Source of the DNA: a virus
Virus record (IMG/VR): IMGVR_UViG_3300025146_000011
Location: 62,001 to 126,000 of that record
Length of the DNA stretch: 64,000 nucleotides
Strand: one strand, 5' to 3'
Each line of letters opens with the position of its first letter. Position 1 is the first letter of the stretch. Below, one piece after another: positions 21,880 through 63,769 of this stretch. The notes beneath the pieces are model-generated. The model saw only the letters and a program-made list of their open reading frames with translations, ran no database searches and had not been told where the DNA came from. The translations under genes were made by a program, and so were the position numbers.

Positions 21880-21880
21880 A

Positions 21881-24164: not shown

Positions 24165-24179
24165 ATTAGTAGTCTCCTC

Positions 24180-24992: not shown

Positions 24993-25846
24993 AAACCGTA
25001 TACCTCGTCAACTATTTTTATTATATCTTTCCATAAAAAATCTTGAACATGTTCAAAACCAGCATATCCATAGTACTTAGGTTTACTAAGACACTTATCT
25101 ATTTGAGTTATAGCATCTTTAATATTATCGTAAAGCATACCATCTATACCTTCACGTATTAGCTCTGCTGGCGCCCCACTCATACGTCTAGCTACAACTG
25201 GTTTATGCATAGCCCATGCCTCTAATATACTAATGCTAAATGTTTCAAGCTCAGAGGTAAGTAGATAAACACTACATCTACGAAGTAAATCTTGAGCTAA
25301 TGGAAAGGGTATGTTTTCACCCACGCAAGCTACATTACCATGTTTGGCTTGCTTTTCACAAACCTGTGGTAGGGTAGCCACAAACTTAAGATTTGGCACT
25401 TCGTTGGCTATATGTATTAGCTCCTCTGGACGCTTAATTGGGTCTAGTCTACCCAACCAAAGTACAAAAGGTTCATACACTGGTTGTATGTTGTAATTAA
25501 TGTCAGTGCCATTTGGTATAACAAAATCTATACGGAAGCCCTTCTGTTGAAGGGCTGACGCAAAACAATTAGATACTGTAAGATTAATAGGTGAATTTCG
25601 CAGGTTTTGTTCTACTATTTGGTTCTCACGTACAAAGTAATAGGGTGTGTCTTTAGTTATAATATTTAACCCATGACACGTATAAATATCTCTACGTAGT
25701 GATGACCACCCAGCGTGTACGTGTACTATGTCTGCGCCAGCAGGCGCATCCACTACTGTGTGTTTAGTATATCTTCTAATTGCATCTAGGTGGCGCAATA
25801 CACCACCACTAGCTATGGTTCTAGGAGGTAACAGACAAAGTTTCAT
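24971..25846 (-). CDS. GT4 family glycosyltransferase
   Basis: A 291-aa GT-B enzyme. ASGGVLRHLDAIRRY, DIVHVHAGWSSL and VIPNGTD define the first domain, while FVLWLGRLDPIKRPEELIHI and ETFSISILEAWAM (the EX7E nucleotide-sugar motif) define the second. All family hallmarks are present although the protein is shorter than usual. Translation is coupled with both neighbours by overlaps. Confidence 0.88.
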   Translation of the reverse strand: MKLCLLPPRTIASGGVLRHLDAIRRYTKHTVVDAPAGADIVHVHAGWSSLRRDIYTCHGLNIITKDTPYYFVRENQIVEQNLRNSPINLTVSNCFASALQQKGFRIDFVIPNGTDINYNIQPVYEPFVLWLGRLDPIKRPEELIHIANEVPNLKFVATLPQVCEKQAKHGNVACVGENIPFPLAQDLLRRCSVYLLTSELETFSISILEAWAMHKPVVARRMSGAPAELIREGIDGMLYDNIKDAITQIDKCLSKPKYYGYAGFEHVQDFLWKDIIKIVDEVYGLCNIARK

Positions 25847-26939
25847 ATATATGTTTCTCCAATAATGGTATTAATATGTCTGCTGCATTACTCATGGTAT
25901 GTTTATTTAGTATATCCTGCCGAGCATTACTTACGTATGCTCGTGCTTCTTCTACGTTATTTATCATATACTCTATGCCCTTGACCCACTCTATATGCTT
26001 ATTTTTTTTAACTAGCCATCCTGTTTTTTGGTGTTGTATGTTATCAGCGTACGATCCAATAGGTGAAGCTATCGTAGACATACCTGCCATAGTATGCTCG
26101 ATCCACTTAATAGGACTTTTACTTAGATTAATTAGATCGTCTGTAACAGGTATGATTCCTATATCTATTTGCTCGTCTGCTTGGAGCTGATAGTATTCTG
26201 GCACAAGTGCGCTACCTTTTACATAAAATACTCTGTCGCTGGGTGGGTTCTTCATTAGTCTTCTATAATCTGCACCTATAAATGTGAAGGTGGTATTTGG
26301 ATATTGATGAAGTATTTGTTCTACAGCAGGTAGAGCTATCTTAAGATCTTCTTCGTGGTTATATCCACCCGACCAACCCAATTTAATAATGTCTCTTGGT
26401 GTCTTAGTGGGTATGTGTGGGAGATTATCTACATCTATAAAATTGGGCACCACATATACCATACCATCATCTCGATGCTTAGCCATCTCACTGGCTAGAT
26501 ATGGCGTACTGGCCGTAGCAAACGTAGACTTATTAATTAACTGATGGATATTGTCTAGAACATTATATTCTATGTAAGGGCGTTTAAAGTGTGCTTGCAT
26601 CGCAGGTGTTAATTGCACTTTAACTATACCAGGACGATACTCTATATAAGCTTGATTCCAAGAAGGCATATGAAATACATCGTCATCTAAGTCAAAGATG
26701 GTAATCTTACCTAATGTGTTAGCTTGCTTAAATACCTTGAGCATGATGGGTAAATGACTACGATAGGTATGTGTGATATTGTATTGCTGCATATCACTAC
26801 TTATATGTACGCGATTAAGCTTAGCACTGGTCCAATCAGGTTGATATTTGCGTATAATAGAAAAGGGTTGCTGACATCTATAGAAGTCGCAACCACCTTG
26901 GGCACCACTGTAAAATACCATAGAGGGTTTAGTTATCAT
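25821..26939 (-). CDS. GT-B glycosyltransferase, first gene of the island
   Basis: A 372-aa protein with an N-terminal GGCDFYRCQQP segment, TIFDLDDDVFHMP, VVPNFIDVDNLP, then KLGWSGGYNHEEDLKIALPA and SPIKWIEHTMAGMSTIASPIG. This places it in the GT4-like group with the DLDD motif found in enzymes from phages and cell-wall loci. The AAGGAG directly abuts the ATG and the predicted transcript starts 3-4 bases before it, so initiation may be near-leaderless. It leads the seven-enzyme operon. Confidence 0.8.
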   Translation of the reverse strand: MITKPSMVFYSGAQGGCDFYRCQQPFSIIRKYQPDWTSAKLNRVHISSDMQQYNITHTYRSHLPIMLKVFKQANTLGKITIFDLDDDVFHMPSWNQAYIEYRPGIVKVQLTPAMQAHFKRPYIEYNVLDNIHQLINKSTFATASTPYLASEMAKHRDDGMVYVVPNFIDVDNLPHIPTKTPRDIIKLGWSGGYNHEEDLKIALPAVEQILHQYPNTTFTFIGADYRRLMKNPPSDRVFYVKGSALVPEYYQLQADEQIDIGIIPVTDDLINLSKSPIKWIEHTMAGMSTIASPIGSYADNIQHQKTGWLVKKNKHIEWVKGIEYMINNVEEARAYVSNARQDILNKHTMSNAADILIPLLEKHIYETLSVTS

Positions 26940-47729: not shown

Positions 47730-50700
47730 CTAACATATTCCAAAAGTACTACACGGATCTACGGTATCTCCACTAAGTCCACTTAATACTTTGTTTGGTC
47801 CTAATGCGGCTTCAAAATGAAGATGTGGTTGACCAGGTGCTCCTGATACCCCTGAGCGAGCTACTACTTGTCCTTTGATAATACGTACTTTTTCACCGCG
47901 TCTAATGCGAGCCATAGTGGTTGGATCAAATTCGTAGTTCTGTAAGTGAGCATATCCAGCAGCAGTGCCATCATCATGATTAATAGCTAACCAGTTTCCA
48001 TATCCCCTACCACTAGAACCTATCTGAGTACCTAGGGCTTCTACATATCCATCTGAAATTGCACGTATAGCTGAGCCCTCAGGAACACCTATGTCTATGC
48101 CTTGATGAATATGATCTCCTCGGTTAACACCGAAGGAGCTAGTGGTGGGTCCATTGCCTGGACGCACATACTGACCAGACTTAACGGGTACGGGTTTAGA
48201 CGTATCAGCGGGTTGTTTAGATGTAGATGGAGGCAATGATTTAGTACCTCCTCGCGCACCCTGAGGAGCCAACTCCTCATTATTGGTATTGGGTTGTTTA
48301 CCCTTATACTCATCCTCAGCTTGCTTACCAGCTTCTCTTATTTGTTTTATTTGTTGAGTAAAGTCATCACTAGATGCATTAGGTATATCATCTCCACCAA
48401 GGGTAACTACGGTACCCTGTCTATGACCTGCTATACCTGCAGTATATTCTCTACCTCTAAAGTTAAGAGGTGCTATAATAAGTGAATATTTACTAGATTG
48501 CCAGTATTCTATTGATAAGAATATACGATCAACTACTAGCCATACTAGTATATCTAGTACTAGAGATACTGCGAATTGTACAGCTGCCACAGGAGCACCA
48601 ACACCCGTAGCTGCTTCACCTACTGCCGTAGCCTTAAGAACCACACTGCCTGCTTTAATTAGCTGTATAATGTTTTTGCCCGCACTAGTTGTTGTCTTAC
48701 CAGCTTTGATCATCTTACCAAGTGTATTTAGACGCTTGGCTCTAGCAATAATGTGTATCATGCCTTTGATTTTATTTAGGGCATCGCCGCCAGATTTAGA
48801 AAATTTATTAATAAGATCTTTGCCTTTAGATAAGGTAGATGTAGTAGGATTTTCAAAACCGTCAACAATGGCTGTTGCTTGAGCTGAGTTAGCAGTTTGG
48901 AATAGTTGTTTTGTTTTATTTAATGTATTGCCTGCCTTCAATAAGGTATTTTTGAGTTTAGCAGCACTATGTGCTAACCATGTAGTAACCGCATTTCTTA
49001 CAACAACAGTAGCACCTATGGCTGCTATGCCCACTAAATAGTTAGCCCATAACCTATCACCTTTTACAGCACAGGCTATATCAGGCGTAATATCTGTAAC
49101 AAATCCCGTATCAAATCCAAAGTGGTGAGTAACTGCTTTTATATCAGCAACACCATTCATCTCTACATATGAATCGGCTAAGTAGAATTTATCACATGGG
49201 AACGCCCACGGTGTACCCATAACTAATAGGCTTCCTTGATACATCTCTCTTGCAGAATCACGAAGTAATGATCTAGTTATCTTGATAGCTTGTCTATGTG
49301 CAGAACTGAGTGGCCAACCATTAATGGTATTGTTAATTAAATCTTTAATTCCACCCCATATACCAGCTGTAAGAAAGTTTAAAAACAAATTAGGTATACC
49401 AAATCCAGCATGATCCCAAGGGTCACTAAACTTAGTAGCTAAGAATCTAGTATCAACTACTTGGTTCTTGCGATATTGAGGGAAGATGGCGCTATCTATT
49501 ACTTGAGGTTCTATTTTAGGTTCACTGTCAGATACATACCATACAGCGTGCATATCTGTATAAACAAGATCATTATTAACTTGTATGTCATTAGCTATAA
49601 TATTACCCGAGGTAAATATATGAGCTTGAGAAAAGGTTTTGATTTTATATGCTACAGGTAGCCCAAAACGAGGGTCATTGATGTAAGCAGGATTAGGGTC
49701 GGTATTAGATACAGTTGTGCTTCCTGGAGCAGTTTGAGCATTCTGAGCTAGTGTTTGGTTAAGCTCTCTACCGCGAGCTATAAGTGATTGCTCCATTAAT
49801 ACTTTTTCTAGTTGTGCACGGACTTCATCTGTATTGGGATGATCAATATTACCGTTAAATATGGGTTTATATTTTTGATTTGTTAATTGTTGTAATTCTA
49901 CTTCCTTTAGGATAATATCATTAGCAAGTAATGTCATTGCAACATCTGAAATAAGTATGTTTTGAGTGGATTGAATCATACGTAGTGAATTGAGGATGGT
50001 CCGAGTTAAATCTTTAATTCTTTGAATATCTTTAACACCTACTTGACTAGTAGATGTTTGGGTTACATTTATATTGTGTTCTTTATTATTTTGTATGTCC
50101 TTAGAGCTAACTCTATGATATGCATACCTAAAGTCATAGTATCCTTCTCCAAAGAAAAGGGTTGATCTATATTCAAATGGACGTACTTGTAAGTAAAAGT
50201 TGGGGCTTGTTTGCATACACAGGGTCATAACATCCCATGGGTTCTTATTGAATATAAACATATTAAGTTTATGGCCACCTGAACGAAGGAAGTCCTCCTG
50301 TGTAGGTGTATCTTCCTTCTTAGCTAATCTGGCTACATCAGCTGGTGAATATATATTCTCGCCTATTTCACCATAAAAGGCTTTAGGATCTGTGGATGCT
50401 AAGTAGAAACCCCTTAGGGGTTCTATTAAATCCATAGTTGTCCTTCCGAAAAAAGTTAAATTATCAAAGTTAATAGCTACACTTGCTAATATTAGTTGAT
50501 CTGGTAATGGTATTCCTTTAGCATTTATTCTTTCTAGTGTTTCTTGCATGGATTGCACTAAAAATCGTTTATTGCTATTTACTTGAGCTTTCATGGCATT
50601 CATTATTGGTTCTGGATATACGGGCCTACCGAAATGTACAACTTTCCAGCCCTTCCCTATTAGGGACATTGATTGACCAGCTGTTGATTTGCTGAGTGCG

Positions 50701-53700
50701 TCTTTTAAGTGTACCCAGAAATCTCCCATAAGAGTTTCAGCCATGTCACTTTCATCTTCAGCACTAGCTGCTCCATAGGGCATCATCATATTAACCATGA
50801 GATCTCTATGTTCATATAGCTGTATGTCTTTAATTTTGGCATTAGGCTTAGCAACGGGGAATATATTCATTAATTCTCTACCATCACCTTCGGCTATAAC
50901 CTCTACTACTTCTCCTACCTCTGTAGCTACTACCGTTCCATTAAACACAACGGGCAACCGCAATCCATTGGAACCATATCCCAATCTAAAATGTATGCGT
51001 ATACCTGGGCGTATTGCTGTTTGCTCCCACTGGCGCGTGCGCTGTTCATTTATGTATTCTATTATCTCTCTATTAGGAATAAGATAAGCTAGATATGAAG
51101 CGCCCAACCATGCAAAGTAATCACCTATCATAGCAGGGAATCCACCTAATGCATTATTGTTTGCTCCAGCATTAGTGGTTTGAAGAACATGTCTACCGTA
51201 ATCAGCACCTAGATCTTGCCATCCACCCTGTACCATACTGTGGTATGCATTAGCAAATGTGAATGTAGCTATATGCACTGGTTCTCGACGATCCATACGG
51301 ACCGTAGCATCCATAAGAGAATTTAGGCTAGCAAAGATAGGTATGCATTTAAACCACCATATCATTGGTCCTTCATCGAGTAACTGAAGAACATATGTAG
51401 GGAATGCTAATACCAATCTTCCTGTTTGATCATAGGTTAATAAATCATGGTAAGCAGCTCTATCTGACTTACCAGGTTTATATCTAGGAACAGGGGCTGT
51501 TGCAGCTATAACATCATTTACTGTATTGGATTCTGTATCTGTCTCTGCTAATATCTGTCTAACAGATCTGTTGGGTATTTCTATTTTCATCTGAGCGGAA
51601 TTATTATCTCCATGTGTACCACTCTTTGTTTGCACACCACCAGTTAACTGAGCATTGGCCTTAAATTTACCTGATGCACCAAGAATATTATTAATATATG
51701 CTTGAACTGTAGGTTTTTTAAATGCTGCTCCTGATAGTACGTTACCTAGACCATCGTTATATGCAGCAAGAGCTTGCTGATAGTCTCCCTTAGTTGCTTT
51801 AAGTTGTAATCCTAAATACTTAGCCGATAGGCGTATATTGATTTCTGGATCGTAAAGCTTATTAAGTAATCGCTGGTTGTTGATTTTCCCCGTATTACTA
51901 AATGTATTAATTATATTGGGATCACAAGCAGCCTTCTCCTCAGCTCCAAGAAAACCACCTAGAGCTCTAGATGCATCACATGCAGCGGCAGGTCCTAGCT
52001 GACCCATACCCACATATCCAGTTGGGCTCTTAGCATGAGCCTGAAAATTACTCTCTGTTCTAAATAATTCTGTTAGTACAACTGGATCTATATTATTTTC
52101 TTTAGCAGCAGAAACAATAGTATCTTTTATTTTTGACATTTGTAATTCATCTTGCACCGAATTGTTAGCATAAGTATCTATAGCTCTTGATGGTATAGAT
52201 ATATTATTGGTTTTAGATTCTATAGCTACTAGTGTAATAGGAGTTGGTTTAGTTGATGCTGGTAAACCTAAAGATGTTTCTATTTTACCTGTTATACTTT
52301 GAGGTACTGGTTGTGGCCCTAAAGCTGCTGAATTAAATCTTTCTATTTCATCTAGTTTAGCTTTAAGATCATCTGCCCTAGCATTAAATATATGCTGCTC
52401 AAATTTATCTATACGCTCTCGCTCTTCTTTAGTGGTTGCATTTGCTTTTGCTTCTTCTAGTATCTTACGAGCTTCAGCATCTGTCTCTTGAACTAGCCTA
52501 GCATTCTCACTAACTCCTATTGATGTTGTATCTATAATGGAGTTAACCATTTCATTCATAGGTAAACCATCATGATGCGGATGAGTAATTATACTCCCGT
52601 ATTTCTGCCTACCTATAGCTTTTGCTGTCATCCTATCGTTTGTACCATCAGGATTAACCGAGAAGTTAGAAGCATAGGTCATTTCTAAACCATCGATCTC
52701 AGCATCATTGAGAGCATCTAATATGTGTGCTTGAAGTAATCCTACCCATGTAGTTTTATCCTGAGATAGTGGCCATGCCATATAGAAATCAGGATCAACA
52801 TACAAACCATTATTTTCTTTAATATGTCTAACTAAGATAGCTCGTTGTTCTGTAAACTCAGGAACTAGTTTGATGATATCAAGTAATCCCTGACTAAATT
52901 CTTTAAAAGTAGGTAATTGAAGATCTGGATAGAGTTGCAAGGTTTGCATACTCTCTAAAGCCATCTCTATTAATTCTTTATCTATACTACGACCAGCACT
53001 TTCAACATTGGTATTGTTTTCTAAGTACTTCTTAAATTCATCTGATGCAAAGAAGTCGCTTTGAAATACGTGTTTAACATCTTTAAATGCTCTTTCGGCG
53101 CGATTGAAAGAAGCGAAACTCATAGTAATCTGACGCCAGCCAGGGAAACCCTGTACGTCATCCATAAGGATGACTTGTGGTACTACATATCTGATACCTA
53201 ATAACTTTAAGATAGGATGATCTATGGTCATAAAACCATCGTTTATTTCAAAGCGATATTCTCTAGCATATTTCTGAGCATTCTTAAATAAGTTTACTAA
53301 GTCTGTTATGAGATTATTGTCATTATTAGCAATTAAGGTAACAACTATTCTATCTTCTTGTGAACCCATAAATTGGTGAGGGGCAATCTCTTGATCGTGC
53401 ATACGCATAAGAGTAATCTGATTTTCCATTGTTACGCTCATCTGCGTGATAATAATAGGTTCTTGTGTATTTAAGGTTAAGAGATGATCTGAGATACCAT
53501 TTTCTATCCATTGAGTTCTTAATTTCTTTAGTGCATCTTCTAGATCTGCGACTTGTTCTCTAGCACGGGATAGTTCTTGTACACGAAGTAATGCACCTAT
53601 GCGCTTACGTTGCTCTAATGCCTCTTCTGCAACTAGACTAAAGGATATCTCACTATTCCACTGTGACTTAAGCAATTCTGCTCCACTAGCTATATCGTCC

Positions 53701-54842
53701 CAATAAGAAGTTAATTTGGCATTATTGGGATTTGTACCTAGTGGTGTATGTTTAAATGCATTGCTTTCTGGATCTATGGTATGTTTAATTAGATTAGCTG
53801 TAATAGATTTGTGATAGTTTGTCCAGTGCCATCTAAATACAGGCCATATAAATGCATCTGTAAAAAAATGTACGTGAGGCATATATACTTTATAGTTAAA
53901 AGCAAGCATAGATAAACGCACCTTTAATGCTTGAGGTAATCCAGGTACGGTGCCTATTTGCATACTCATTAATGTAATGGCATCTATTTCATAATCTATG
54001 GTTAGCTTACTATTGAGCACTGGTAAGAAGGGTGTCTGTCTGAATTGAGCTACTAATGAAGCTAAACAATTAGGATCTCCGAATACTACTTCTTCACCAC
54101 TATCTCTTTTAATCTTTTTAACATTACTTGCATTACCAAATATCTCATTAAGGTTAGAAAAAGTTAATTCTATCTCTATGCGAATATCAGATCTACCAGC
54201 AAAGTGTTGTTGTGCACCAGGCGTACGAATCGTACTAAGAGCCGTTGTTTGAAATACTTTATTGACAGATATATTCTCTGGTGGTATATGAAATATACTA
54301 TCTCCTAATCTAAAATAAGTAGGATCACCCAGTAGGTCCTCTCTATCAGGAAAATCAAATGCCTCAGGAAAGTCATTGTTTTCAAAGAGAGCTTCGTAAT
54401 TTCCACTAAAACCACCTATATTTAATCCTAATGTTTCCTTACCTTCTTGGCGAAACTCTCGATTGGCTTCTGCAACTATTAATTTACCACCAAGTCTCTC
54501 TGCATTAGTTATTGCACTTTGAACAGTAGAAATACCATTATCAGGCATGGCTACTAACTTACTCACAAAGCCCACAGCACCCATAGCTTCTTGTCTAAAG
54601 AGGGGTAATATAACTGGGGAGAAGAATTGATCGCGAGTAAGAGATAAGTTGCTTTCGCCATCAACTATATCAGATACATATTGTCGTGCTTTGCGAACCA
54701 GTTCTTGATTGGGATTTTGTTTTCTAAGTTCTGGAAGGATAGTAATAAGAGCATTACCACTATCAATTATCTTAAGAAGATCCTTACGATCTTGACTGGT
54801 AAGTAATTTAGATGCTTCGTTAGGATTAGTATCTCTAGACAT
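47730..54842 (-). CDS. Giant hub/tail lysin: transglycosylase and M23 peptidase domains
   Basis: A 2370-aa protein. The first 850 residues have hub-like beta and helical parts (IEIELTFSNLNEIFGN, ITMSFASFNRAERAF). Residues about 900-1055 form a soluble lytic transglycosylase domain (LTELFRTESNF with the catalytic Glu, GYVGMGQLGPAAA, AAYNDGLGNVL). Hydrophobic segments lie near 1930-1960 and 2067-2110. Residues about 2230-2366 are an M23 peptidase with HQGIDIG (HxxxD), and HLHFE for the second metal-binding pair. It would dig through peptidoglycan at infection. Confidence 0.85.
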   Translation of the reverse strand: MSRDTNPNEASKLLTSQDRKDLLKIIDSGNALITILPELRKQNPNQELVRKARQYVSDIVDGESNLSLTRDQFFSPVILPLFRQEAMGAVGFVSKLVAMPDNGISTVQSAITNAERLGGKLIVAEANREFRQEGKETLGLNIGGFSGNYEALFENNDFPEAFDFPDREDLLGDPTYFRLGDSIFHIPPENISVNKVFQTTALSTIRTPGAQQHFAGRSDIRIEIELTFSNLNEIFGNASNVKKIKRDSGEEVVFGDPNCLASLVAQFRQTPFLPVLNSKLTIDYEIDAITLMSMQIGTVPGLPQALKVRLSMLAFNYKVYMPHVHFFTDAFIWPVFRWHWTNYHKSITANLIKHTIDPESNAFKHTPLGTNPNNAKLTSYWDDIASGAELLKSQWNSEISFSLVAEEALEQRKRIGALLRVQELSRAREQVADLEDALKKLRTQWIENGISDHLLTLNTQEPIIITQMSVTMENQITLMRMHDQEIAPHQFMGSQEDRIVVTLIANNDNNLITDLVNLFKNAQKYAREYRFEINDGFMTIDHPILKLLGIRYVVPQVILMDDVQGFPGWRQITMSFASFNRAERAFKDVKHVFQSDFFASDEFKKYLENNTNVESAGRSIDKELIEMALESMQTLQLYPDLQLPTFKEFSQGLLDIIKLVPEFTEQRAILVRHIKENNGLYVDPDFYMAWPLSQDKTTWVGLLQAHILDALNDAEIDGLEMTYASNFSVNPDGTNDRMTAKAIGRQKYGSIITHPHHDGLPMNEMVNSIIDTTSIGVSENARLVQETDAEARKILEEAKANATTKEERERIDKFEQHIFNARADDLKAKLDEIERFNSAALGPQPVPQSITGKIETSLGLPASTKPTPITLVAIESKTNNISIPSRAIDTYANNSVQDELQMSKIKDTIVSAAKENNIDPVVLTELFRTESNFQAHAKSPTGYVGMGQLGPAAACDASRALGGFLGAEEKAACDPNIINTFSNTGKINNQRLLNKLYDPEINIRLSAKYLGLQLKATKGDYQQALAAYNDGLGNVLSGAAFKKPTVQAYINNILGASGKFKANAQLTGGVQTKSGTHGDNNSAQMKIEIPNRSVRQILAETDTESNTVNDVIAATAPVPRYKPGKSDRAAYHDLLTYDQTGRLVLAFPTYVLQLLDEGPMIWWFKCIPIFASLNSLMDATVRMDRREPVHIATFTFANAYHSMVQGGWQDLGADYGRHVLQTTNAGANNNALGGFPAMIGDYFAWLGASYLAYLIPNREIIEYINEQRTRQWEQTAIRPGIRIHFRLGYGSNGLRLPVVFNGTVVATEVGEVVEVIAEGDGRELMNIFPVAKPNAKIKDIQLYEHRDLMVNMMMPYGAASAEDESDMAETLMGDFWVHLKDALSKSTAGQSMSLIGKGWKVVHFGRPVYPEPIMNAMKAQVNSNKRFLVQSMQETLERINAKGIPLPDQLILASVAINFDNLTFFGRTTMDLIEPLRGFYLASTDPKAFYGEIGENIYSPADVARLAKKEDTPTQEDFLRSGGHKLNMFIFNKNPWDVMTLCMQTSPNFYLQVRPFEYRSTLFFGEGYYDFRYAYHRVSSKDIQNNKEHNINVTQTSTSQVGVKDIQRIKDLTRTILNSLRMIQSTQNILISDVAMTLLANDIILKEVELQQLTNQKYKPIFNGNIDHPNTDEVRAQLEKVLMEQSLIARGRELNQTLAQNAQTAPGSTTVSNTDPNPAYINDPRFGLPVAYKIKTFSQAHIFTSGNIIANDIQVNNDLVYTDMHAVWYVSDSEPKIEPQVIDSAIFPQYRKNQVVDTRFLATKFSDPWDHAGFGIPNLFLNFLTAGIWGGIKDLINNTINGWPLSSAHRQAIKITRSLLRDSAREMYQGSLLVMGTPWAFPCDKFYLADSYVEMNGVADIKAVTHHFGFDTGFVTDITPDIACAVKGDRLWANYLVGIAAIGATVVVRNAVTTWLAHSAAKLKNTLLKAGNTLNKTKQLFQTANSAQATAIVDGFENPTTSTLSKGKDLINKFSKSGGDALNKIKGMIHIIARAKRLNTLGKMIKAGKTTTSAGKNIIQLIKAGSVVLKATAVGEAATGVGAPVAAVQFAVSLVLDILVWLVVDRIFLSIEYWQSSKYSLIIAPLNFRGREYTAGIAGHRQGTVVTLGGDDIPNASSDDFTQQIKQIREAGKQAEDEYKGKQPNTNNEELAPQGARGGTKSLPPSTSKQPADTSKPVPVKSGQYVRPGNGPTTSSFGVNRGDHIHQGIDIGVPEGSAIRAISDGYVEALGTQIGSSGRGYGNWLAINHDDGTAAGYAHLQNYEFDPTTMARIRRGEKVRIIKGQVVARSGVSGAPGQPHLHFEAALGPNKVLSGLSGDTVDPCSTFGIC

Positions 54843-54844: not shown

Positions 54845-57800
54845 TTACCTTTTATGAAGTAGATGTAGTAATTCATCTTCAACTGTTTCTTTGATTTTCT
54901 TGCGGTGATCTTGTGATGTGATATGAATATTGGTTGGCATTTGAACTTGAGATAGTGATTGACCAACCAATTGATGTAGTTGATCGGGGTCTATATCTCC
55001 TCTGTCGCGGGCCCTAATGCGCACTTTATACGCATTACCTCCCTTACCTGGTACTGTCTCATCCATAATACGTGTTGTGCCACCTACTGATGGACTAGCT
55101 GGAGGTGTGTAAGAACCATCGGGCATAGGTGTCATGTCTGGACCAGGTGCTATCATATCTGGTTTGAGTTCACGTTGACCTAGTTGTAGTGAAGAAGAAA
55201 GTAATCCCGCACCTACGACAGCTGTAGCTAAACCACCTAATCCCCATCGCGCGGAACGAGGTAAGCGCATAAAAGCATTCTCTATCATATCAATAGCTTT
55301 TCCTGGCTTAGGACGAATTGTTTCAGCAGCCTCAGCTACTCCAGAGGCTGCATGAGCCCCTACACTACCAGCAACTTCTTCTGTGATATCAGCTGCAGCA
55401 GTGAAGCTACCCATAAGATCTTGTAGCTTAGCTCCAGAACGTATCTGGCGTAATCTTTCTGACATAGGTAGATGAGCGTATTGTTCTGTTAGATTACCTA
55501 TTAGAGAACTTGTTTGTTGATAGTGGCTTTCTATTACACCTTGTTCTGCGCCATGCTGAATACCTCTATCTAATCTACGTCTCCATAAATCTGCTTCACT
55601 AATAATAGTTTTTGCTTTAACTTCTTCTATAGCTGATTCAGGAGCTATACCTTCTACAAATGCCTGGGCTTGAGCAGAACGCAGTTTCTCATTTAGCTCT
55701 TCTGCTGTACCTACCATTTTAAACTTAGCTCCGTGGGTTTCCATAGACTGTAGGATTAACTCATGCATACCTCCAGTTTCCCCAAGGGGTTTTACTTTAG
55801 CATAGTATCCTACTCCACGACTAAGAGCATATAGCTTCTCTTGATTCTGGCGCATAAGTTCTGCAGACTTCTCAGGTATGGCTGCCCATGGACCTGCTTC
55901 AAGTGAAGCACCTGCCGATAAGATCTTTCTACGACCTGGCTCACTCGTAAGAACGTCCATAATATTCTGGGCTCTAGACGGTGAAGGTATTGCAGTAGCT
56001 TGAGGACCTGTTGGTATTGCTGTTATTGGTGTTGTTGTTATTGGTGTTGTTGGTATTATTGGTGCTGTTGATGGTGCTGTTGGTAATGCTGTTCGTAGTG
56101 CTGTTGATAATGCTGTTGGTAATGCTGTTGATGGTGCTGTTCGTCGTGCTGATGGTGCTACTGTTGGTGTTGGTATTATTGGTGTTGTGGATTTTATTGT
56201 AGATTTTAGATGTGTTGTTGTAATAAACTTTTCTCTAGCTCTTTGCTGTATACTAGTCATCTGCTTCGCAGCTATATTGTATTGCTCTATACCCACCTGT
56301 TCAAATGCTGCAGACTGAGCACTCATTATATCATGTAGTACGGCTACGTCTCTGGCTGCATACTGGTATCGTTGTTTTGATAGCCTACCACCCCACTTAG
56401 ATTTTTGTGCTTCTTTAGGCAAGGAAATGTTTAAATATTTAGACGCAAGATATCCTAGGTTAGATTTACCATACTTAGTTTGACTAAGAACCTGCTCTGC
56501 CACCATAGGATCGTATATCTGCCCACCGATTTTATATCCTTCGCCTAATAAAGCTTTGATATCAAATGGAGCATTTTGTATTATTTTAGGTCTAGAACTA
56601 GCGAGGAACTCAGTTAAAATAGATCTACCCTTTTTAGGTAGTTTAAGGAGATCTACAATACCAACAGGTCCGCCCTCAGCTGAAAGCTGAAGCAATCTAA
56701 CTCTCTCTATTGCTTCAGAAAATGCTGTTGTTTCTGTATCTAATGCAATATGACCAGATGATGGTAGACTCTTAAGGAATTCTTGTAACCCCTTAGCTGT
56801 AGTAATACGCTTGTATTGAACTGACTTAGGCTGTAATACTTGTTGAGGCATTGGCCCAACAAAAGGTTTAGCATAGGATTCAAGAGGGTTTGTAGGTTGA
56901 CTGGGTAAATTTACAATGTCTTTGGGTGATTTACCACTAGCTAATATTCTCTCATGCCCTACAAATTGCTTAGCTATATCTTCACGCTGTTCAAAAAGAG
57001 CTTGCATTTTAGGTGTGCCATATAGCTCACCAGCTTCGCGATGTTGTTGTATTAGTTGCTCTATGTTGGCTAACTCTTTAGATGCTTGCGATGCTTTAGC
57101 ACCAAACTCAGATACTGTTTCTATTTCTGACATACCAGATCTTATATAATCCTGCCATGCTGCCATTTGTTGAGCAAAATCTAATGTAGTAGATTTTGCT
57201 AGCTTGAGATATGCTTTAGATCTATATCCTGGTGCTTGCGTAGCAGCACGAGTTGCAATTTTCTGTATTACTTTACGAAATTCATCAAACTCCGCAACCT
57301 CAGCAGTATGACCCTTAACTAGTTTTAATATGTCTTCAGAGTGTCTAAATTTCTGATAGGAATATATTGCTTGTGGGTGTGTCTGACGCATGTAGGACTC
57401 GAATGCTGTTCCAAATACATCAGCTTCTGATAGTTGTGTGGGTAGGGCTGTTTCTGCAAGAGGAGATATGGACTTAGGACTAAACTGAAAAACTGTTCCC
57501 ATACCAGATTGTATTTCCCTTTCTCGTTGAGAAAGGGGTCGTAAGACATCCATTGCCTCCATCTTTTCACGAGACATCACATTAGCAGAAGCCAATTCTT
57601 GTGTTAAATCTCTTTTTGCACCAGCTTCTATTATATTACTTGTTTGAGCCAATAAGTTACGATCTACCTTAGGAGAAGATGTAAACTGAGCTAACCACGA
57701 ACCCATCATCTTAAGAGGACGCTCGTGTATCTCCCAGGCCATACGCGCCTTACTAGAACCAGTCACTACTGTACGGTACCCCTTAAGAGTTTCCTGTACT

Positions 57801-58573
57801 TCTTCTCCAAAAGAGGGTAAGATTTTCTCAAAGATATGTTGTTCCATAGTATATATATCTTTGATAGTATTAGGTAAGGATATATTAGCACCAAAAGAAG
57901 CCTTAAGTAATTGCTTAGTTTTTATGACTACATCTTTGGTAGATGTCTTTTCTATTTGTTGATATGCTTGCAAGAATTCCTGAACAGATAATTCTCGGTG
58001 AAAAAGATTTGCCTGAAGTTGTTTAATTTGATCTAGTGTATATCCTCCACTAGGCATTGCACCTGTTACGTCTTGCCATAGCTTCCATTTTTCAGTTCTA
58101 GTCATGTTTTCTAGCTGTGTTTGCCAAGAACCAGAAGGAGGTATAATAGTTGGTAGTGATGTCTTTACAGGAAGACCAGTTAATCCTTCGTGATAAGCAG
58201 AAGCGGTAAATCTAATAGTTGGTAATTGTGGACCACCTGTACCACCTATATGACCCAAACTAATCATTTTACTGATCTTAGATCTAATGCTTACATTATG
58301 TGGTGTATGGAGATACTGTCCAAAATAGGATGGTGTGCTTAATGAGGTAGATAGTGCTCGTTGGATTTCTTTGTGTGTTGTGTAGGTCTGATTAGTAAGA
58401 GGAGCAATAAGAATATTCTCTCCTGTAAATGGATCTAGTATAAGATTACTAGATCTAGTGGTTTGGTTGTGAAGATGCTCGCTCCACGCAGGATTACTAA
58501 CTGACCTAGCTATGTGAAGAGATTCTCTTGCGCTCTCTTCTCCGTGATTAATTGGAAAGGGTCCAAATGCCAT
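54845..58573 (-). CDS. Giant tail protein with embedded DEDDy 3'-5' exonuclease
   Basis: A 1242-aa protein between the hub gene and the 1525-aa tape-measure-region gene. Residues about 595-755 form a complete RNase D/Pol I-type exonuclease: LDTET (Exo I), QNAPFDIKAL (Exo II) and YAARDVAVLHDI (Exo III, Tyr and Asp), so all DEDDy residues are present. N-terminal 590 residues are helical tail-like sequence. An Ala/Pro/Thr/Ile linker (about 785-861) is followed by more helical sequence and a hydrophobic segment (RWGLGGLATAVVGAGLL, around 1105-1125). AGGAG precedes the ATG. The location within the tail cluster implies a virion protein; that is inference. Confidence 0.82.
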   Translation of the reverse strand: MAFGPFPINHGEESARESLHIARSVSNPAWSEHLHNQTTRSSNLILDPFTGENILIAPLTNQTYTTHKEIQRALSTSLSTPSYFGQYLHTPHNVSIRSKISKMISLGHIGGTGGPQLPTIRFTASAYHEGLTGLPVKTSLPTIIPPSGSWQTQLENMTRTEKWKLWQDVTGAMPSGGYTLDQIKQLQANLFHRELSVQEFLQAYQQIEKTSTKDVVIKTKQLLKASFGANISLPNTIKDIYTMEQHIFEKILPSFGEEVQETLKGYRTVVTGSSKARMAWEIHERPLKMMGSWLAQFTSSPKVDRNLLAQTSNIIEAGAKRDLTQELASANVMSREKMEAMDVLRPLSQREREIQSGMGTVFQFSPKSISPLAETALPTQLSEADVFGTAFESYMRQTHPQAIYSYQKFRHSEDILKLVKGHTAEVAEFDEFRKVIQKIATRAATQAPGYRSKAYLKLAKSTTLDFAQQMAAWQDYIRSGMSEIETVSEFGAKASQASKELANIEQLIQQHREAGELYGTPKMQALFEQREDIAKQFVGHERILASGKSPKDIVNLPSQPTNPLESYAKPFVGPMPQQVLQPKSVQYKRITTAKGLQEFLKSLPSSGHIALDTETTAFSEAIERVRLLQLSAEGGPVGIVDLLKLPKKGRSILTEFLASSRPKIIQNAPFDIKALLGEGYKIGGQIYDPMVAEQVLSQTKYGKSNLGYLASKYLNISLPKEAQKSKWGGRLSKQRYQYAARDVAVLHDIMSAQSAAFEQVGIEQYNIAAKQMTSIQQRAREKFITTTHLKSTIKSTTPIIPTPTVAPSARRTAPSTALPTALSTALRTALPTAPSTAPIIPTTPITTTPITAIPTGPQATAIPSPSRAQNIMDVLTSEPGRRKILSAGASLEAGPWAAIPEKSAELMRQNQEKLYALSRGVGYYAKVKPLGETGGMHELILQSMETHGAKFKMVGTAEELNEKLRSAQAQAFVEGIAPESAIEEVKAKTIISEADLWRRRLDRGIQHGAEQGVIESHYQQTSSLIGNLTEQYAHLPMSERLRQIRSGAKLQDLMGSFTAAADITEEVAGSVGAHAASGVAEAAETIRPKPGKAIDMIENAFMRLPRSARWGLGGLATAVVGAGLLSSSLQLGQRELKPDMIAPGPDMTPMPDGSYTPPASPSVGGTTRIMDETVPGKGGNAYKVRIRARDRGDIDPDQLHQLVGQSLSQVQMPTNIHITSQDHRKKIKETVEDELLHLLHKR
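55990..56210 (-). repeat. Low-complexity DNA repeat coding a TA/IP-rich linker
   Basis: Units such as gctgttgatggtgctgtt and ttggtgttgttgttatt (plus strand) repeat with small changes over 220 bases. They encode an Ala/Pro/Thr then Ile/Pro/Thr-rich linker right after the exonuclease domain. The tract is likely to vary in length by slippage. Confidence 0.75.
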
Positions 58574-58589: not shown

Positions 58590-61500
58590 CTACCTAAGTA
58601 ACATATGTCCATCTTTGCGGATGAACTCACGTATTTGATCTTCTCGTTCGTGCTTAACTCTCATATCTATTTGTATATCTGGATTTTCACTGGGTGTATC
58701 TTCTACGGTAATAAATAGATTTTCTAAACCCTGCCCTCCAAGTATGTGATGTAAGTAATCTTTTAAATGTCCGCCGTCTCTAGGAACAAAGGGTTGTATA
58801 TCAAGTACGCCTTGTCGCTCTGCTGCTTCTACACGAGGACCATAATATCCCATCTCTGCCATATCTAATCCTTCATTCTTCATAACCTTTATCTTATAGT
58901 CTTCTAGATTAGCATCAGGACTCCAACCATGCCAGTCTGGGGGAGGTAGAAAATGATTTTTGAAGTACTCTTCTAAATCTGGGCGATCCTCTATGGGCAT
59001 CCTCCACTTAGCCTCAAGTACTCGTCGCATATTGTGAGGTACTAAGTTGAGTATTTCTGACCGTTCCTTGGGAGGAGCTTTCATGAATTCAACCATGAAC
59101 TCTCGTTCACGAGAAGGAATAGCTCTAAATATATCCAGCATTGCGCCATGAGGATCTACACCATATAGAGTTGTCTTAGCTAGATCTCTATACTGTATCG
59201 CTCTAGCTATCTCTTCTGTTAGAGGTATAACTTGTGTTTCTTTACTAAGATCGCCTAAGCGTTTAGTGTATTTACGTGATATGTGTTCTCTCAAGTGCTT
59301 ATCTTTACTGGCTATACGCTTGCGGATTTTCCGCAACTGTTTAATATGATGTTTATCTTCTTTAGTTTTTTCTGACTTAGCTGTTAGTTGTTGAAGTTCT
59401 CGTTCTGTTTTAAGAAGCTCTAATAGATGAGAACCATGGAGTCCACGCCTAAGAAAATGTCGTTTATGAGAGGTTAGTCTACGTTGCTCATTCTTACGAG
59501 CTTCACCCTGTCCTTCTAATAAGTTAAGTAATCTATCTACATCTATTCCTGTGGTATCTTTAATATTACTTATGGCAGCTCCATATAATCTCTGATATTT
59601 CATATATCTAAGTATATCAAAGTATTCTTCCGTATCTCTTCTATGTTGTAGTTTACCAGGTATGGCGTGAGTAGCCTTAAGATATAAGCTATACGATAAC
59701 CCAGCTATACCTCCGATAGCACCTAATACACCCTTAGACCTACCCATGCGTACATACCACCGCTCTAATGTAGAGAGCGTTCTTTGCTCCAAGTACTTGG
59801 CAGCAACGGGACCTGTACGTCCTAAGAATAAACCCAAAGTAGCTCCGCCTATTAATCCATGTATAGGACTTTCTGCTGCCCAGCCTTGTATTGCTTGACC
59901 TATAATACCTAATGGATTTGTCCAGTTATAGAAGTTAGCACCATATACCATTCGTCTTCTATAGTATTCTAGCGCTGAATCTGTCTGTAGAAATTTTTGC
60001 TTAATTGTACCCACAATTGGTATGGGTATGGTCATATGCGAAAACCACTCAAGTGATTTACCTAGACCTATTTCCATTCCACTAAATCTGGCTTGTATGC
60101 CTGTTGGTGAGTAGTCGGTTACCTTCTCCTTAGCTACTCCTGCATCCAATAGGGCTTGCTGTAATTTTCTACCTTGCTCGTCAAATACAACAGCATGCAT
60201 AGTTTGTAGTGTATCGTCTGCTACTTGAATAAGCGGATCTTTATTAAGTATTACTTTTATCTTACCGCCTATTGGAGCAAACTGTTGAGTAATCTCTAAC
60301 GCCTGTAATCCTTCCTTGTCCTTACCTATAGCCGCACGTATTCCCGCTAATCTAATGGGATTAGCTAATTCTTCTGTAAGTATTGTTTGTGAATCTATAA
60401 TCGATTTAACAGTTAATGTATGTTCTTCAACATCACCAGCATACCTAAATCTATATGGTGCAAAATTATAACGCTTCTTACGTTTTGCAACTTCTTTACG
60501 TATAGCAGCTATCCTAGTTCTTGCATTCTCTATGTTTATTCTATCTTGTCCTTGTAATCCTGTTGGTTCTAATACATGCGTAGCATAATCTAAATATGAC
60601 TTAAATGTTTTAGAATATGGAGCAACATCAGCTAATATCTCTAACCTATCCATAAGAGGATATTGTTCCATTGATATATCTTGAGGCAATCCATGGATAG
60701 AAGCATATCCTGGTCCAGGTAACCTAGCCTCACCCCTTGGCAGGGCTGAATAAGGATCCGCTCGATGGAAGTTGATAAAGTAATCTGGCTCAATACTACC
60801 AGTTCCAGGTAGCCAGCTTGGTTGTGTATTTAGTAGTGGATTAATTTCCTTGGCACGTTCTTCATATCCTCGCCTACTAAGTGCTCGTCTAAATATTTCA
60901 GAAAGCTCTCCCATTACAGGTAAATCAGGAGAGAAACCACCTATGTTTAGATCTCGATAAAGATAACGCTCTAATGAAGTGTATTCTGGTTGAGCCAATC
61001 TATATTGCTCTAATGTCTTATTGCCAACTAAGGTCTTACCTATGTATCCACGAAGACCAAATATATCCGCTATAGACTCCTGTTCTCTAGCAAACTGTAC
61101 ACCTATCCCTGCGGGATGAATTAGTTGATCTATAATATCTGGTGTTAATTGATTAATATCTGTGACTTCAGATAGGGGTCTTAGGTTCTCAAGTACTCCC
61201 TCATCTAATACCCTACCTGAACGTGTGCCTTCATTAGCTTGCGCTAGAGCATCTAAAACACGTTCTCTGGATACATATCTAGGAGTAGTTCCTTGTTGTT
61301 CGGGTATGGGTGCCACTGCTCTTGCACCAGCTTGACGTATATTTAGATTGATGTCAGCTAATTGATCTGTGACGTGTCCGCTTGTTGTAGGTATGGGTTT
61401 TGTTGGACCTGCTCCCGTAGGTGTTGGTTGTAATTGTGTAACTTGTACCTGACCACCAGGGGTTACATACCCATATAAGTCCTCATCCCTAACCTTACGA

Positions 61501-63167
61501 GTAGTTTCGTTTTGTTCCGCAAGGGTATTAAAATACTCCTTAAGTTCATTAACATGCATAGGACGTACGGGTTTAATAAGTTGTCCTATGGTAGCATTAA
61601 CTATTGGTCCATAGAAAGCTGTTGATTCTACTAATGGAGCAGTAAGAGGTGTGGGTCTAGATTCATAAAACTTCTTTTCCCAGTGATAAGGATCTAGATA
61701 ATGAGGTAGTGGTATTCCTAAATTTTCTAATGTTGGTAGACTGGCATATTTATAATATTCACTAGGAGGGAAGAAAGCCTCTCTTGGATGTTCATGAGCT
61801 CTACGTACCCATGGAGATTGATATGATTCTATTCTCCCACCTCTGAAGAGCTCAGGCGACATAGCTGCCCACCATCTACCCTTACGTACAGGTTCCCTAC
61901 CTTTCTCGTAATACTCTTCTAGTTCATCCCTGCTTAAGCCTACGGGTTGATCTACAAATGGATGTGCTACAAGAGATGTTAATTCTGGAGCAATAGAATG
62001 TAAGCGTTTAACAAAGGGGGTTATTCCTGTAATGTCCTTGAGCCATGCTAATCCTAAATTAGCATGCTTATATCCTTCTGCTAATACATCATATGGAGAC
62101 GTACCAAATACATCTCTAGATTTAGTGTTTAAATAGTTTAGATAAAATGCTCCTAGAGCTAGAGGAGCAACGCGGCCAAATACTACATTAAGTACAAAGT
62201 CAGCAGGCGAAGACATTGCTCCTTCGCCTAAAGCTAGGTACTTACCAAACGGAAGGGCTTGGCGTACTTGTTCATTTAGCTTTATGGCCGTACGCATAAA
62301 GCCTAAGGATATATCACTAACTTCCCCTGGGTATGCTCTAGCTTTCCATAGCTCTTTACCTAATCCTCTTACATCTTCCCAGATGGACTGTTGACCAGTG
62401 AAGCGTTCACGTATAGTTGACCATTGATTAATCTTAGAACGTTCAAAATAATCCGTCCCATGTATTAGATTCTTCCAGAATCCATGTTGTTTAACTTGTT
62501 GTTGGAAAGTAAAATCAGATAATTCAGGTACAGCCTGACTAAATAGAACACTAAATTCTTTAGAATAGGTGCCAGTAAATTGTTCCTCAGTAGATGTTGC
62601 ACCTACGAAACCACCACGAGTTAGTTTAAAGCCCTTACCAAGAACCTCTTTGCTACGAGTACCATATATAGCACCCCTAATATAGATAAGTTCTTCGTCT
62701 ACATTTTTACTTAAGAAGCGGAGAGAAGGATGTCTTACTGCCTTACTAAGATTAACTACAAAGGGAGTTTGTGCTTCCTGTACTGCATGACGCAAGCCAA
62801 CCATACCAGATAGGATATGTCCTGGCCATGTTTCCTCTAGAACAGTTGTAGCTTTTTGAATAAATGGATGTTTGAGTGCTTGATATCTTAGAGATTCAAG
62901 AAGACTCAGTGGACGCTCAGATGCTTCTTGTATACCGCGTCTGATAGCCTCGGTAGCAGCCCTAGTTGAAGGACCATATCGTAGTTTGCCACCTTGCTCC
63001 AAGATCTCAGTAGTAAATTGCTTAGTTACTGCAGCTGATCTTCCCCGCAACAATAAAGCAGCTCCTCCTGCTAGGAGGAGCCCACCCATACTCCATTTAA
63101 GAAGAGCGCTTCTGCGCTCTTCTGCATCTGGGTCTCGATAGACCCCATATTCTTTAAACATGGTCAT
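58590..63167 (-). CDS. Tape-measure-region protein, 1525 aa, with SNase-like domain
   Basis: It starts by ATGA overlap with a tail assembly chaperone gene, the usual place of the tape measure. A membrane helix lies near residues 25-42 and others near 322-342, 1100-1122 and 1146-1165, consistent with a protein ejected into the membrane. Residues about 900-1020 resemble a staphylococcal nuclease fold (TLTVKSIIDSQTIL, IRLAGIRA, LQQALLDAGVAKE), but the acidic and Arg catalytic positions are missing. Residues about 1230-1305 are a basic coiled coil. Most of the length is helical. Confidence 0.68.
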   Translation of the reverse strand: MTMFKEYGVYRDPDAEERRSALLKWSMGGLLLAGGAALLLRGRSAAVTKQFTTEILEQGGKLRYGPSTRAATEAIRRGIQEASERPLSLLESLRYQALKHPFIQKATTVLEETWPGHILSGMVGLRHAVQEAQTPFVVNLSKAVRHPSLRFLSKNVDEELIYIRGAIYGTRSKEVLGKGFKLTRGGFVGATSTEEQFTGTYSKEFSVLFSQAVPELSDFTFQQQVKQHGFWKNLIHGTDYFERSKINQWSTIRERFTGQQSIWEDVRGLGKELWKARAYPGEVSDISLGFMRTAIKLNEQVRQALPFGKYLALGEGAMSSPADFVLNVVFGRVAPLALGAFYLNYLNTKSRDVFGTSPYDVLAEGYKHANLGLAWLKDITGITPFVKRLHSIAPELTSLVAHPFVDQPVGLSRDELEEYYEKGREPVRKGRWWAAMSPELFRGGRIESYQSPWVRRAHEHPREAFFPPSEYYKYASLPTLENLGIPLPHYLDPYHWEKKFYESRPTPLTAPLVESTAFYGPIVNATIGQLIKPVRPMHVNELKEYFNTLAEQNETTRKVRDEDLYGYVTPGGQVQVTQLQPTPTGAGPTKPIPTTSGHVTDQLADINLNIRQAGARAVAPIPEQQGTTPRYVSRERVLDALAQANEGTRSGRVLDEGVLENLRPLSEVTDINQLTPDIIDQLIHPAGIGVQFAREQESIADIFGLRGYIGKTLVGNKTLEQYRLAQPEYTSLERYLYRDLNIGGFSPDLPVMGELSEIFRRALSRRGYEERAKEINPLLNTQPSWLPGTGSIEPDYFINFHRADPYSALPRGEARLPGPGYASIHGLPQDISMEQYPLMDRLEILADVAPYSKTFKSYLDYATHVLEPTGLQGQDRINIENARTRIAAIRKEVAKRKKRYNFAPYRFRYAGDVEEHTLTVKSIIDSQTILTEELANPIRLAGIRAAIGKDKEGLQALEITQQFAPIGGKIKVILNKDPLIQVADDTLQTMHAVVFDEQGRKLQQALLDAGVAKEKVTDYSPTGIQARFSGMEIGLGKSLEWFSHMTIPIPIVGTIKQKFLQTDSALEYYRRRMVYGANFYNWTNPLGIIGQAIQGWAAESPIHGLIGGATLGLFLGRTGPVAAKYLEQRTLSTLERWYVRMGRSKGVLGAIGGIAGLSYSLYLKATHAIPGKLQHRRDTEEYFDILRYMKYQRLYGAAISNIKDTTGIDVDRLLNLLEGQGEARKNEQRRLTSHKRHFLRRGLHGSHLLELLKTERELQQLTAKSEKTKEDKHHIKQLRKIRKRIASKDKHLREHISRKYTKRLGDLSKETQVIPLTEEIARAIQYRDLAKTTLYGVDPHGAMLDIFRAIPSREREFMVEFMKAPPKERSEILNLVPHNMRRVLEAKWRMPIEDRPDLEEYFKNHFLPPPDWHGWSPDANLEDYKIKVMKNEGLDMAEMGYYGPRVEAAERQGVLDIQPFVPRDGGHLKDYLHHILGGQGLENLFITVEDTPSENPDIQIDMRVKHEREDQIREFIRKDGHMLLR

Positions 63168-63769
63168 GGCCCTATGTTGTTAGCTCCAAACATCTTTTGG
63201 ATGATTGCTTCGCGTTCCTGATCTCTACTGCGAGGTGATGGATTATTGACTTCAGATCTGATTCGTCTACGATATATATCTTCAGCTGTTGGAGGGGGTT
63301 TGAGTTGTACTGGATTGAGCACTAGGTTCTCATGCATCCACTCTGCACGGCTATAATGATATAATAGCTCTTGCATAGACATCTTTTTTATTTCCCACAA
63401 TGGCATTACAAAGTATCTAGCAACTATAGCTTCTATCTTATCTTGAAATGAACCGTTAGCTTCTAGCTCATCTCTATAGGCACAAAGCAAACTAGTTGCT
63501 TTAGGTCCCCATCCTGATGCTGTAAGTATTGCTTCTGATAACCCTGAAGCAACTCCCATAGGAAGCTCTAGTAAATCTATATCTTTTGGGTATAAAATAC
63601 ATAACTTACATAGTAACTCTTCTCGTTCACACTCATTAGTAAATCCCATAAGAGCTTGTTGCTCAAATAGCTTAAGAGATCTAAAAATAAAATTCCATTG
63701 TAGAATTTTAACTTGGTAGATCCCTCTATATTCAAGTTTCCAATTAAGGATCTGTTCGGGAGTAATCAT
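63164..63769 (-). CDS. Tail assembly chaperone 2
   Basis: A 201-aa protein preceding the tape-measure-region gene. IYQVKILQWNFIFRSLKLFE, ELLCKLCILYP and GVASGLSEAILTASGWG follow the pattern of phage tail assembly chaperones, which coat the tape measure during tail growth. The same LxYP ... aGI ... SGF pattern is in the partial gene upstream, so the two are paralogues. A stop codon immediately precedes its ATG in frame, so there is no frameshift fusion to the upstream gene. C-terminal 50 residues are basic and disordered. Confidence 0.68.
   Translation of the reverse strand: MITPEQILNWKLEYRGIYQVKILQWNFIFRSLKLFEQQALMGFTNECEREELLCKLCILYPKDIDLLELPMGVASGLSEAILTASGWGPKATSLLCAYRDELEANGSFQDKIEAIVARYFVMPLWEIKKMSMQELLYHYSRAEWMHENLVLNPVQLKPPPTAEDIYRRRIRSEVNNPSPRSRDQEREAIIQKMFGANNIGP

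Follow-up and report, generated by a model that had tools for sequence, protein, structure and literature searches.

A DEDDy 3′–5′ exonuclease domain in a tail-locus protein of a 0305phi8-36-like phage

What place does a 3′–5′ exonuclease have in the tail cluster of a bacteriophage? The question is raised by a 64,000-nucleotide stretch of viral DNA (the window), comprising bases 62001–126000 of the 161,400-base IMG/VR record IMGVR_UViG_3300025146_000011, in which one gene encodes a protein of 1242 amino acids (aa) with an exonuclease of the DEDDy subfamily in mid-chain. The gene is an uninterrupted open reading frame at 54845..58573 on the minus strand, with an ATG start and no internal stops, and lies between a giant structural-type gene (1525 aa) and a hub gene (2370 aa). 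At the same position, termed the slot here, most related phages encode a protein with an exonuclease of another subfamily, DEDDh, and parts resembling RNA polymerase.

The exonuclease domain

A sequence-only reading of the window had picked out LDTET, NAPFDIKAL and YAARDVAVL in this gene as the motifs of an exonuclease of the RNase D/DNA polymerase I (Pol I) type. All three were confirmed at the residue level inside 56300–56770, and the assignment holds far beyond chance (PF01612, E-value (E) 9.2e-22). The domain and its motifs are as follows.

56324..56812, minus strand: DEDDy 3′–5′ exonuclease domain, aa 588–750 (PF01612, DNA_pol_A_exo1; Pfam match and predicted fold)
56732..56740, minus strand: exonuclease motif I, D612 and E614 (LDTET, aa 611–615; alignment and residue check)
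56561..56575, minus strand: exonuclease motif II, N667 and D671 (NAPFD, within NAPFDIKAL, aa 667–675; alignment and residue check)
56348..56362, minus strand: exonuclease motif III, Y738 and D742 (YAARD, within YAARDVAVL, aa 738–746; alignment and residue check)

The PF01612 match, at 78.1 bits against a curated cut-off of 23.6, is the sole confident Pfam domain of the protein and the only match to this family in the whole 161,400-base record; in the remaining ~1080 residues Pfam recognises no enzyme domain. PHROG 17 (DNA polymerase) matches the same stretch (5.6e-12). A hidden Markov model (HMM) of 35 other viral DEDDy domains, built without the window row, gave the protein 91.7 bits, the next best of the 40 searched reaching 11.7, and the catalytic residues D612, E614, N667, D671, Y738 and D742 are invariant in all 36 aligned viral domains.

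An AlphaFold2 model of aa 575–775, computed with 36 sequences, has a mean predicted local distance difference test score (pLDDT) of 85.9 and a predicted template modelling score (pTM) of 0.82. In a Foldseek search of solved structures, the exonuclease of the apicoplast DNA polymerase from Plasmodium reached E 2e-13, with Aquifex Pol I at 1e-11 and E. coli RNase D at 4e-11 also among the best matches. Alignment with VIA-align gave Z 23.1 for Aquifex Pol I (root-mean-square deviation (rmsd) 3.6, 171 residues aligned), 21.6 for RNase D, 21.1 for the apicoplast polymerase, 21.0 for WRN and 19.8 for Klenow; the folds of Rrp6 and NrnC are also similar. The comparison with RNase D and Pol I that the sequence-only reading had proposed therefore places the predicted model in the DEDD fold. 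Judged by its motifs and modelled structure, the region aa 588–750 is a complete DEDDy 3′–5′ exonuclease domain with an RNase H-like DEDD fold, of a class whose activity depends on metal ions. It shares motifs, fold and catalytic residues with the DEDDy exonucleases of Pol I, RNase D and NrnC; elsewhere, however, such a domain is part of a polymerase or of an RNA- or oligonucleotide-processing enzyme, whereas here it lies mid-chain in a tail-locus protein.

The window domain matches 31 annotated phage records at ~29–34% identity, and in the records that were opened (a Pseudanabaena phage and two crAss-like phages) the matching region is the N-terminal exonuclease domain of a family A DNA polymerase. 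From a scan of viral contigs the best 80 loci were kept, and the domain-bearing frame was examined in 44 of these. Beyond the window’s own phage (L082), the frames in these 44 loci span 198–952 aa and mostly have the size and layout of family A polymerases; from size, layout and motif-like patterns, they appear to be polymerases. One longer frame of 1394 aa (L112), considered as a second tail-type case, was set aside as a family A polymerase with an intein, as judged by eye.

The full-length gene recurs at 100% identity in two other IMG/VR records, and aa 1–247 in a third, which makes a chimeric assembly unlikely, provided that these records do not share reads with this one. The GC content of the domain is 0.384, next to 0.388 and 0.394 for the two preceding stretches and 0.424–0.446 for the C-terminal part, so that base composition gives no clear hint that the domain was acquired recently.

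The slot family and its enzymes

The slot family is defined here as those genes lying between a homologue of the 1525-aa gene and a homologue of the hub gene, and sharing a conserved C-terminal module. The features of the window gene and its surroundings are listed below.

54845..58573, minus strand: 1242-aa slot gene with exonuclease (open reading frame; identical copies; position and C-terminal module as in relatives)
54890..55237, minus strand: C-terminal module, aa 1113–1228, with a hydrophobic segment, a Pro-rich stretch and a terminal block (HMM, hhalign, phmmer)
58590..63167, minus strand: upstream neighbour, 1525 aa (homologue of ME3_35, KLEB27-3 structural proteins and MTATph1 CDS0026)
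47730..54842, minus strand: hub/endolysin-type neighbour, 2370 aa (Pfam SLT and M23 domains)
63164..63769, minus strand: 201-aa gene in the tail-chaperone position (position only, compare ME3_33/34)
55934..56221, minus strand: Thr/Pro/Ala low-complexity linker, ~aa 785–880 (translation, limits by eye)

The window gene fits the slot, with the 1525-aa homologue as its immediate 5′ neighbour and the hub homologue as its immediate 3′ neighbour; the sequence-only reading had placed it between tape-measure-region and hub genes. The 1525-aa neighbour matches proteins of Moorella phage MTATph1, Bacillus phage KLEB27-3 and Acinetobacter phage ME3, in all of which the order is similar (structural-type gene, giant gene, hub/endolysin gene), with an IS21-like element and small genes intervening in MTATph1. 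The ME3 record annotates the slot-flanking genes as homologues of 0305phi8-36 proteins, and in KLEB27-3 the same-slot protein (gp034) bears the depositor’s label ‘structural protein’. The shortest slot protein has 939 aa and the longest at least 3287.

An HMM of the C-terminal module gave the window gene 24.4 bits, compared with 5.9 for the next of the 255 frames of at least 90 aa in the record and 10.3 for the best of 2000 shuffles. Alignment of the window C-terminus to the module with hhalign gave E 1.5e-5 (probability 79.5%), and phmmer linked it to L044 with an independent E of 1.2e-10 in a set of ~40 proteins. By position and C-terminus, as read from sequence, the window protein is a member of the slot family of 0305phi8-36-like phages, a family that the sequence-only reading had overlooked together with its module. 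A small beta-rich domain after the exonuclease (window ~aa 905–970, by eye) was considered as a further shared part and rejected, with L066 scoring 9.3 bits as a pre-cut piece and the window piece −1.5.

The contents of the slot were compared in 39 proteins, taken from 36 of 45 loci found with a hub profile and from three phage records, with the window phage (L011) included; 19 loci of another scan were not read for slots. Dropped from the 45 were L047, L049, L050, L051, L057 and L063, which repeat both the gene coordinates and the lengths of a kept locus, L074, which ends before the slot gene, and L077 and L078, which match the peptidase gene only. Among those kept, L076 is ME3 (L015) again, cut at the locus edge, as are L045, L062, L067 and L071, and L055, L056 and L060 are near copies. 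HMMs were built per protein with the tested protein left out and a threshold of 16 bits; close relatives were left out only where named, and the scores of L036, L055 and L060 are too high. A 28-row alignment omits 11 of the 39 (the window, MTATph1, both copies of ME3, L065, L072, L073, L075, L036, L055 and L060). Of the two profiles, the DEDDh exonuclease profile A5 (22 sequences) also drops end-cut rows and rows without the region, and the beta′ profile A6 (26 sequences) drops L058 and L066, whose rows align poorly.

With the per-protein HMMs an exonuclease was detected in 30 of the 39 proteins and a beta′ part in 30, with both DEDDh and beta′ in 28, 27 of which also have a beta part. In the 28-row alignment the DEDDh residues D296 and H369 are present in 26 rows and D374 in all 28; for the beta′ active-site motif RYP...DxDGD, R and P are found in 27 rows, the first two D in 28 and the third D in 27. 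The catalytic residues D16, E18, D199, H272 and D277 of A5 are invariant in its 22 slot domains. Searched against the Protein Data Bank (PDB), A5 found solved 3′–5′ exonucleases (best E 1.4e-6) and A6 found the phiKZ RNA polymerase PHIKZ055 (E 1.8e-4), below which stand only weak matches: a major capsid protein at 7e-4, BamD and numerous RNA polymerase subunits.

Stronger evidence for a polymerase than these A6 matches comes from a model of L035 aa 1060–2040 (981 residues; pLDDT 86.0, pTM 0.82). All 50 Foldseek matches listed for this core are RNA polymerases, mostly beta′/Rpb1 chains (best E 4e-6), over alignments of ~250 residues and with low whole-model TM scores of 0.12–0.18. Model residues 1–492 align by VIA with Rpb2/beta chains (Z 16.2, rmsd 3.5, 339 aligned), and the DxDGD motif lies at model residues 769–773; the later part is called beta′-like on motif, profile and Foldseek chains. 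On this predicted structure the slot core of L035 is a single-chain two-barrel RNA polymerase, beta-like in its first half and beta′-like in its later part. Among predicted viral structures the same model is closest to one labelled ‘minor tail protein’ (TM 0.59, E 1e-21); next come an entry without a name and two uncharacterised ME3 proteins (BFVD A0A172Q021 and A0A172Q0S6). Going by these matches between models, ME3 may encode two such polymerases.

Relatives of the 1525-aa neighbour also occur in ten plasmid records of 188–240 kb from Bacillus, Paenibacillus, Cytobacillus and Cetobacterium (e.g. NZ_CP065512, NZ_CP048288, NZ_CP021670), with the Cetobacterium match covering 11% of the neighbour only, and relatives of a polymerase-bearing slot protein occur in two plasmid records. 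The presence of these genes there suggests phage-plasmids. As to the neighbours themselves, the hub-type protein combines a lytic transglycosylase (SLT) with an M23 peptidase domain, and the 201-aa gene has a weak match to a PHROG of unknown function. A staphylococcal-nuclease-like pattern seen by eye in the 1525-aa protein, without catalytic residues, was rejected, since neither Pfam nor a search of profile A1 against the PDB gave a match up to E 0.1.

Slots without a detected polymerase

Two slot proteins homologous to each other, those of MTATph1 and L066, have a DEDDh exonuclease and no detected polymerase. The exonuclease was recognised by hhalign in MTATph1 (probability 97.9%, E 4e-13) and by PF00929 in L066 (E 5.1e-8). 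L066 was also considered as a second slot DEDDy, with PF01612 at 0.00067, but PF00929 is the better match over an overlapping stretch. The polymerase profile, which gives 599 bits in KLEB27-3 (the positive control for the genome searches with A5 and with this profile), found nothing in the MTATph1 record, complete as deposited, or in the L066 fragment. In MTATph1 (L013:27854–30096) transposase and IstB-like genes, IS21-like by eye, interrupt the slot gene, and the C-terminal module is encoded in a separate gene, CDS0031.

In the window protein, A5, the per-protein HMM and the record search all found no DEDDh exonuclease. The polymerase profiles found no polymerase in the protein or anywhere in the record of 161,400 bases. 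Their reach is limited, however: A6 misses the published tail-fused polymerase of P23-45, and A11 misses ME3. The one stretch aligned in the window protein, DIDPD in the C-terminal module (E 0.23), was taken as chance. Beyond copies of the same phage in other records, no second DEDDy slot protein was found, KLEB27-3 and MTATph1 included. The search for related tail proteins with the same insertion has thus yielded the family, and no DEDDy domain in another lineage. The statement that no standard tail protein was known to have such a domain needs qualifying, since same-slot relatives carry a 3′–5′ exonuclease of the DEDDh subtype.

Elsewhere in the family, L073 has a beta′ match only, and both enzymes went undetected in L058 (beta′ 11 bits, sub-threshold), L065, L072, L075, L076 and L015. 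A DEDD-like series (DIET...TDFEEL) noticed by eye in L072 (2736–7556, ~aa 740–925) received no support from hhalign.

An unrooted tree built from 35 hub proteins, which has long branches and low support at some nodes (one 0.342, one 0.438), places MTATph1 and L066 as a pair (1.000) beside a polymerase-bearing group (0.967), and groups the window with L065 and L072 (0.887), both without either enzyme detected. As the pair and the window fall apart in this tree, the slots in which no polymerase is detected probably have more than one origin. DEDDh and DEDDy exonucleases belong to one superfamily, and as classified from sequence two of its subfamilies occupy one slot. The window domain scores 91.7 bits with the DEDDy model and has no match to the slot DEDDh profile, which points to replacement of DEDDh by DEDDy rather than drift.

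The proposed role and its alternatives

Tail proteins with a fused enzyme, for which a role in genome entry has been proposed, are already known. In Thermus phage P23-45, gp96 is a tape measure protein fused to a virion RNA polymerase, and its authors hypothesise that transcription is concomitant with genome translocation (PMC10770324). Like the slot family, gp96 is a giant tail protein of a long-tailed phage with a nucleic-acid enzyme proposed for DNA entry, and relatives of P23-45 without the fused polymerase are reported in the same paper, comparable to the slots with no polymerase detected. The main text of that paper never uses the word ‘exonuclease’, whereas the window protein has a DEDDy domain and no detected polymerase. 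The DEDDh profile found nothing in the P23-45 record, where the beta′ profile misses the known polymerase, so that the reach of this comparison is limited. The virion RNA polymerases of N4-related and crAss-like phages are likewise large virion proteins whose enzymes are believed to work during entry; the available text of PMC10770324 speaks of no exonuclease fused to them, and the window phage shows no RNA polymerase.

Nearest by position is 0305phi8-36, where orf146 (gp146), assigned as the tape measure, occupies the same slot between chaperone-like/structural genes and the hub gp147 (PMC2147016). The available part of that paper aligns it with presumed homologues over the last 60 residues only, mentions no enzyme domain for it, and calls orfs 143 and 144 the sole non-structure genes near the tape measure genes; the RNA polymerase of this phage is a separate gene, orf99, and orf146 is likened to the slot family here by its description only. 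A further paper names the YonO-like RNA polymerase of 0305phi8-36 and, in its available text, leaves the slot gene unmentioned (PMC7824862). Closest in content are KLEB27-3 gp034 and MTATph1 CDS0027, which share the slot, homologous flanks and a DEDDh exonuclease; KLEB27-3 adds a polymerase core, the MTATph1 gene is interrupted by the IS21-like element, and neither was found with DEDDy.

The reading favoured here, with a probability of roughly 0.55, is that the slot protein is tail-borne cargo, taken into the host together with the DNA, and that 3′ ends are what it acts on. It would sit in the tail beside the hub, anchored by its C-terminal module, and enter the cell along with the end of the phage DNA that arrives first, delivery being argued by analogy with the tape-measure-fused polymerase of P23-45. 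There the exonuclease would trim 3′ ends, most likely those of the entering phage DNA, for example exposing single strands at the termini so that these could anneal, be protected or serve in initiating replication. In the relatives, early transcription would be launched by the polymerase while the DNA is entering, as has been proposed for P23-45. Relatedness to the exonucleases of DNA polymerases favours DNA 3′ ends as the substrate, although RNA or host nucleic acid may be the target instead. An exonuclease is also present in slots without a detected polymerase, so that editing of polymerase products is probably not its sole role; its recurrence there, from two DEDD subfamilies, suggests that the slot requires 3′-end removal in its own right.

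Several points weigh against this reading. It is built on genes, comparisons and predicted models. The DEDDy part comes from one lineage, and DEDDy may have entered an exonuclease-less slot rather than replaced DEDDh. The HMMs detect no DEDDh in eight of the 39 slot proteins (the window, which has DEDDy, and L058, L065, L072, L073, L075, L076 and L015), and in L062, cut at its 5′ end, a beta′ part accompanies an exonuclease score of 11 bits, below threshold. The profiles are of finite reach: the A5 genome search recovers the MTATph1 exonuclease and misses that of L066, found by Pfam and the per-protein HMM, and the absence of a polymerase from the window phage is provisional, as the profiles also miss distant known or likely polymerases. 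Similarity to Pol I exonucleases is the only basis for preferring DNA over RNA as the substrate, and with the slot gene of 0305phi8-36 assigned as a tape measure, the slot protein might be mainly structural.

A more ambitious and distinctly more tentative proposal is that the slot product is an entry machine: a 3′–5′ exonuclease and a single-chain RNA polymerase, delivered as one polypeptide, would work together at the incoming genome and amount to an RNA polymerase equipped with its own exonuclease; the window protein would then be a polymerase-less version with an exonuclease of the other subfamily, 3′-end removal being indispensable. This is weakened by the hub tree, which allows DEDDy to have been gained rather than swapped.

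It is less probable still, yet worth serious consideration, that the delivered exonuclease works on RNA, trimming transcripts, degrading host RNA or short oligonucleotides and, in the relatives, editing the RNA made by the fused polymerase. The predicted fold matches RNase D, Rrp6 and NrnC as well as Pol I, and 28 of the 39 slot proteins combine an exonuclease and an RNA polymerase beta′ part in one chain. However, the closest sequences found in annotated phages come from family A DNA polymerases, as their exonuclease domains, and MTATph1, L066 and the window have an exonuclease with no polymerase detected, within the limits of the profiles.

Somewhat behind this stands the view that the protein is mainly a tape measure or tail scaffold, with the exonuclease as a bystander or binding domain of little catalytic role in entry. 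The lengths of the slot proteins would suit a scaffold, as would 0305phi8-36 orf146, assigned as the tape measure from tail length (PMC2147016). Intact catalytic residues in the window domain, their invariance across the 22 DEDDh domains of A5 and the presence of a second DEDD subfamily in the slot of the window phage speak against a passive domain.

A post-entry replication or repair protein outside the virion, such as a proofreading partner for a DNA polymerase of the phage, seems improbable. The phage does encode a DnaE-type DNA polymerase III alpha subunit with PHP, NTPase and finger domains (L005:18276 onwards, L006:182–2416), and outside the tail protein its record, possibly a fragment, has no match to PF01612, PF00929 or the slot-type DEDDh. 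The gene nevertheless lies inside the tail cluster, its C-terminal module is common to a family with a member annotated as structural, and its ~1080 further residues hold no Pfam enzyme domain. Chimeric assembly or a chance motif match can be practically dismissed, given the 100% identity in other records, a domain GC content like that of the preceding stretches, and an E of 9e-22.

Two further observations concern the rest of the genome. A 326-aa protein at 11033–12013 has a weak match to sigma-70 region 4 (1.9e-4), just under the curated cut-off, and from this and the DnaE-type polymerase the window phage may use the host RNA polymerase for its early genes. A run of genes at 20300–26939 encodes proteins whose starts are glycosyltransferase-like by eye.

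A literature search, which left subscription journals mostly uncovered, found no published tail protein with a 3′–5′ exonuclease, no fusion of one to a two-barrel polymerase, no slot holding two exonuclease subfamilies, and no publication naming KLEB27-3 or MTATph1; among the titles and abstract openings listed, only the P23-45 paper was close. The proposal is testable in named relatives, namely KLEB27-3, MTATph1 and the plasmid records of Bacillus and Paenibacillus species, and a gene assigned as a tape measure mainly from tail length, as in 0305phi8-36, deserves a second look. If the favoured reading is true, a companion 3′–5′ exonuclease drawn from both DEDDh and DEDDy would point to an unrecognised 3′-end step in the entry of these genomes.

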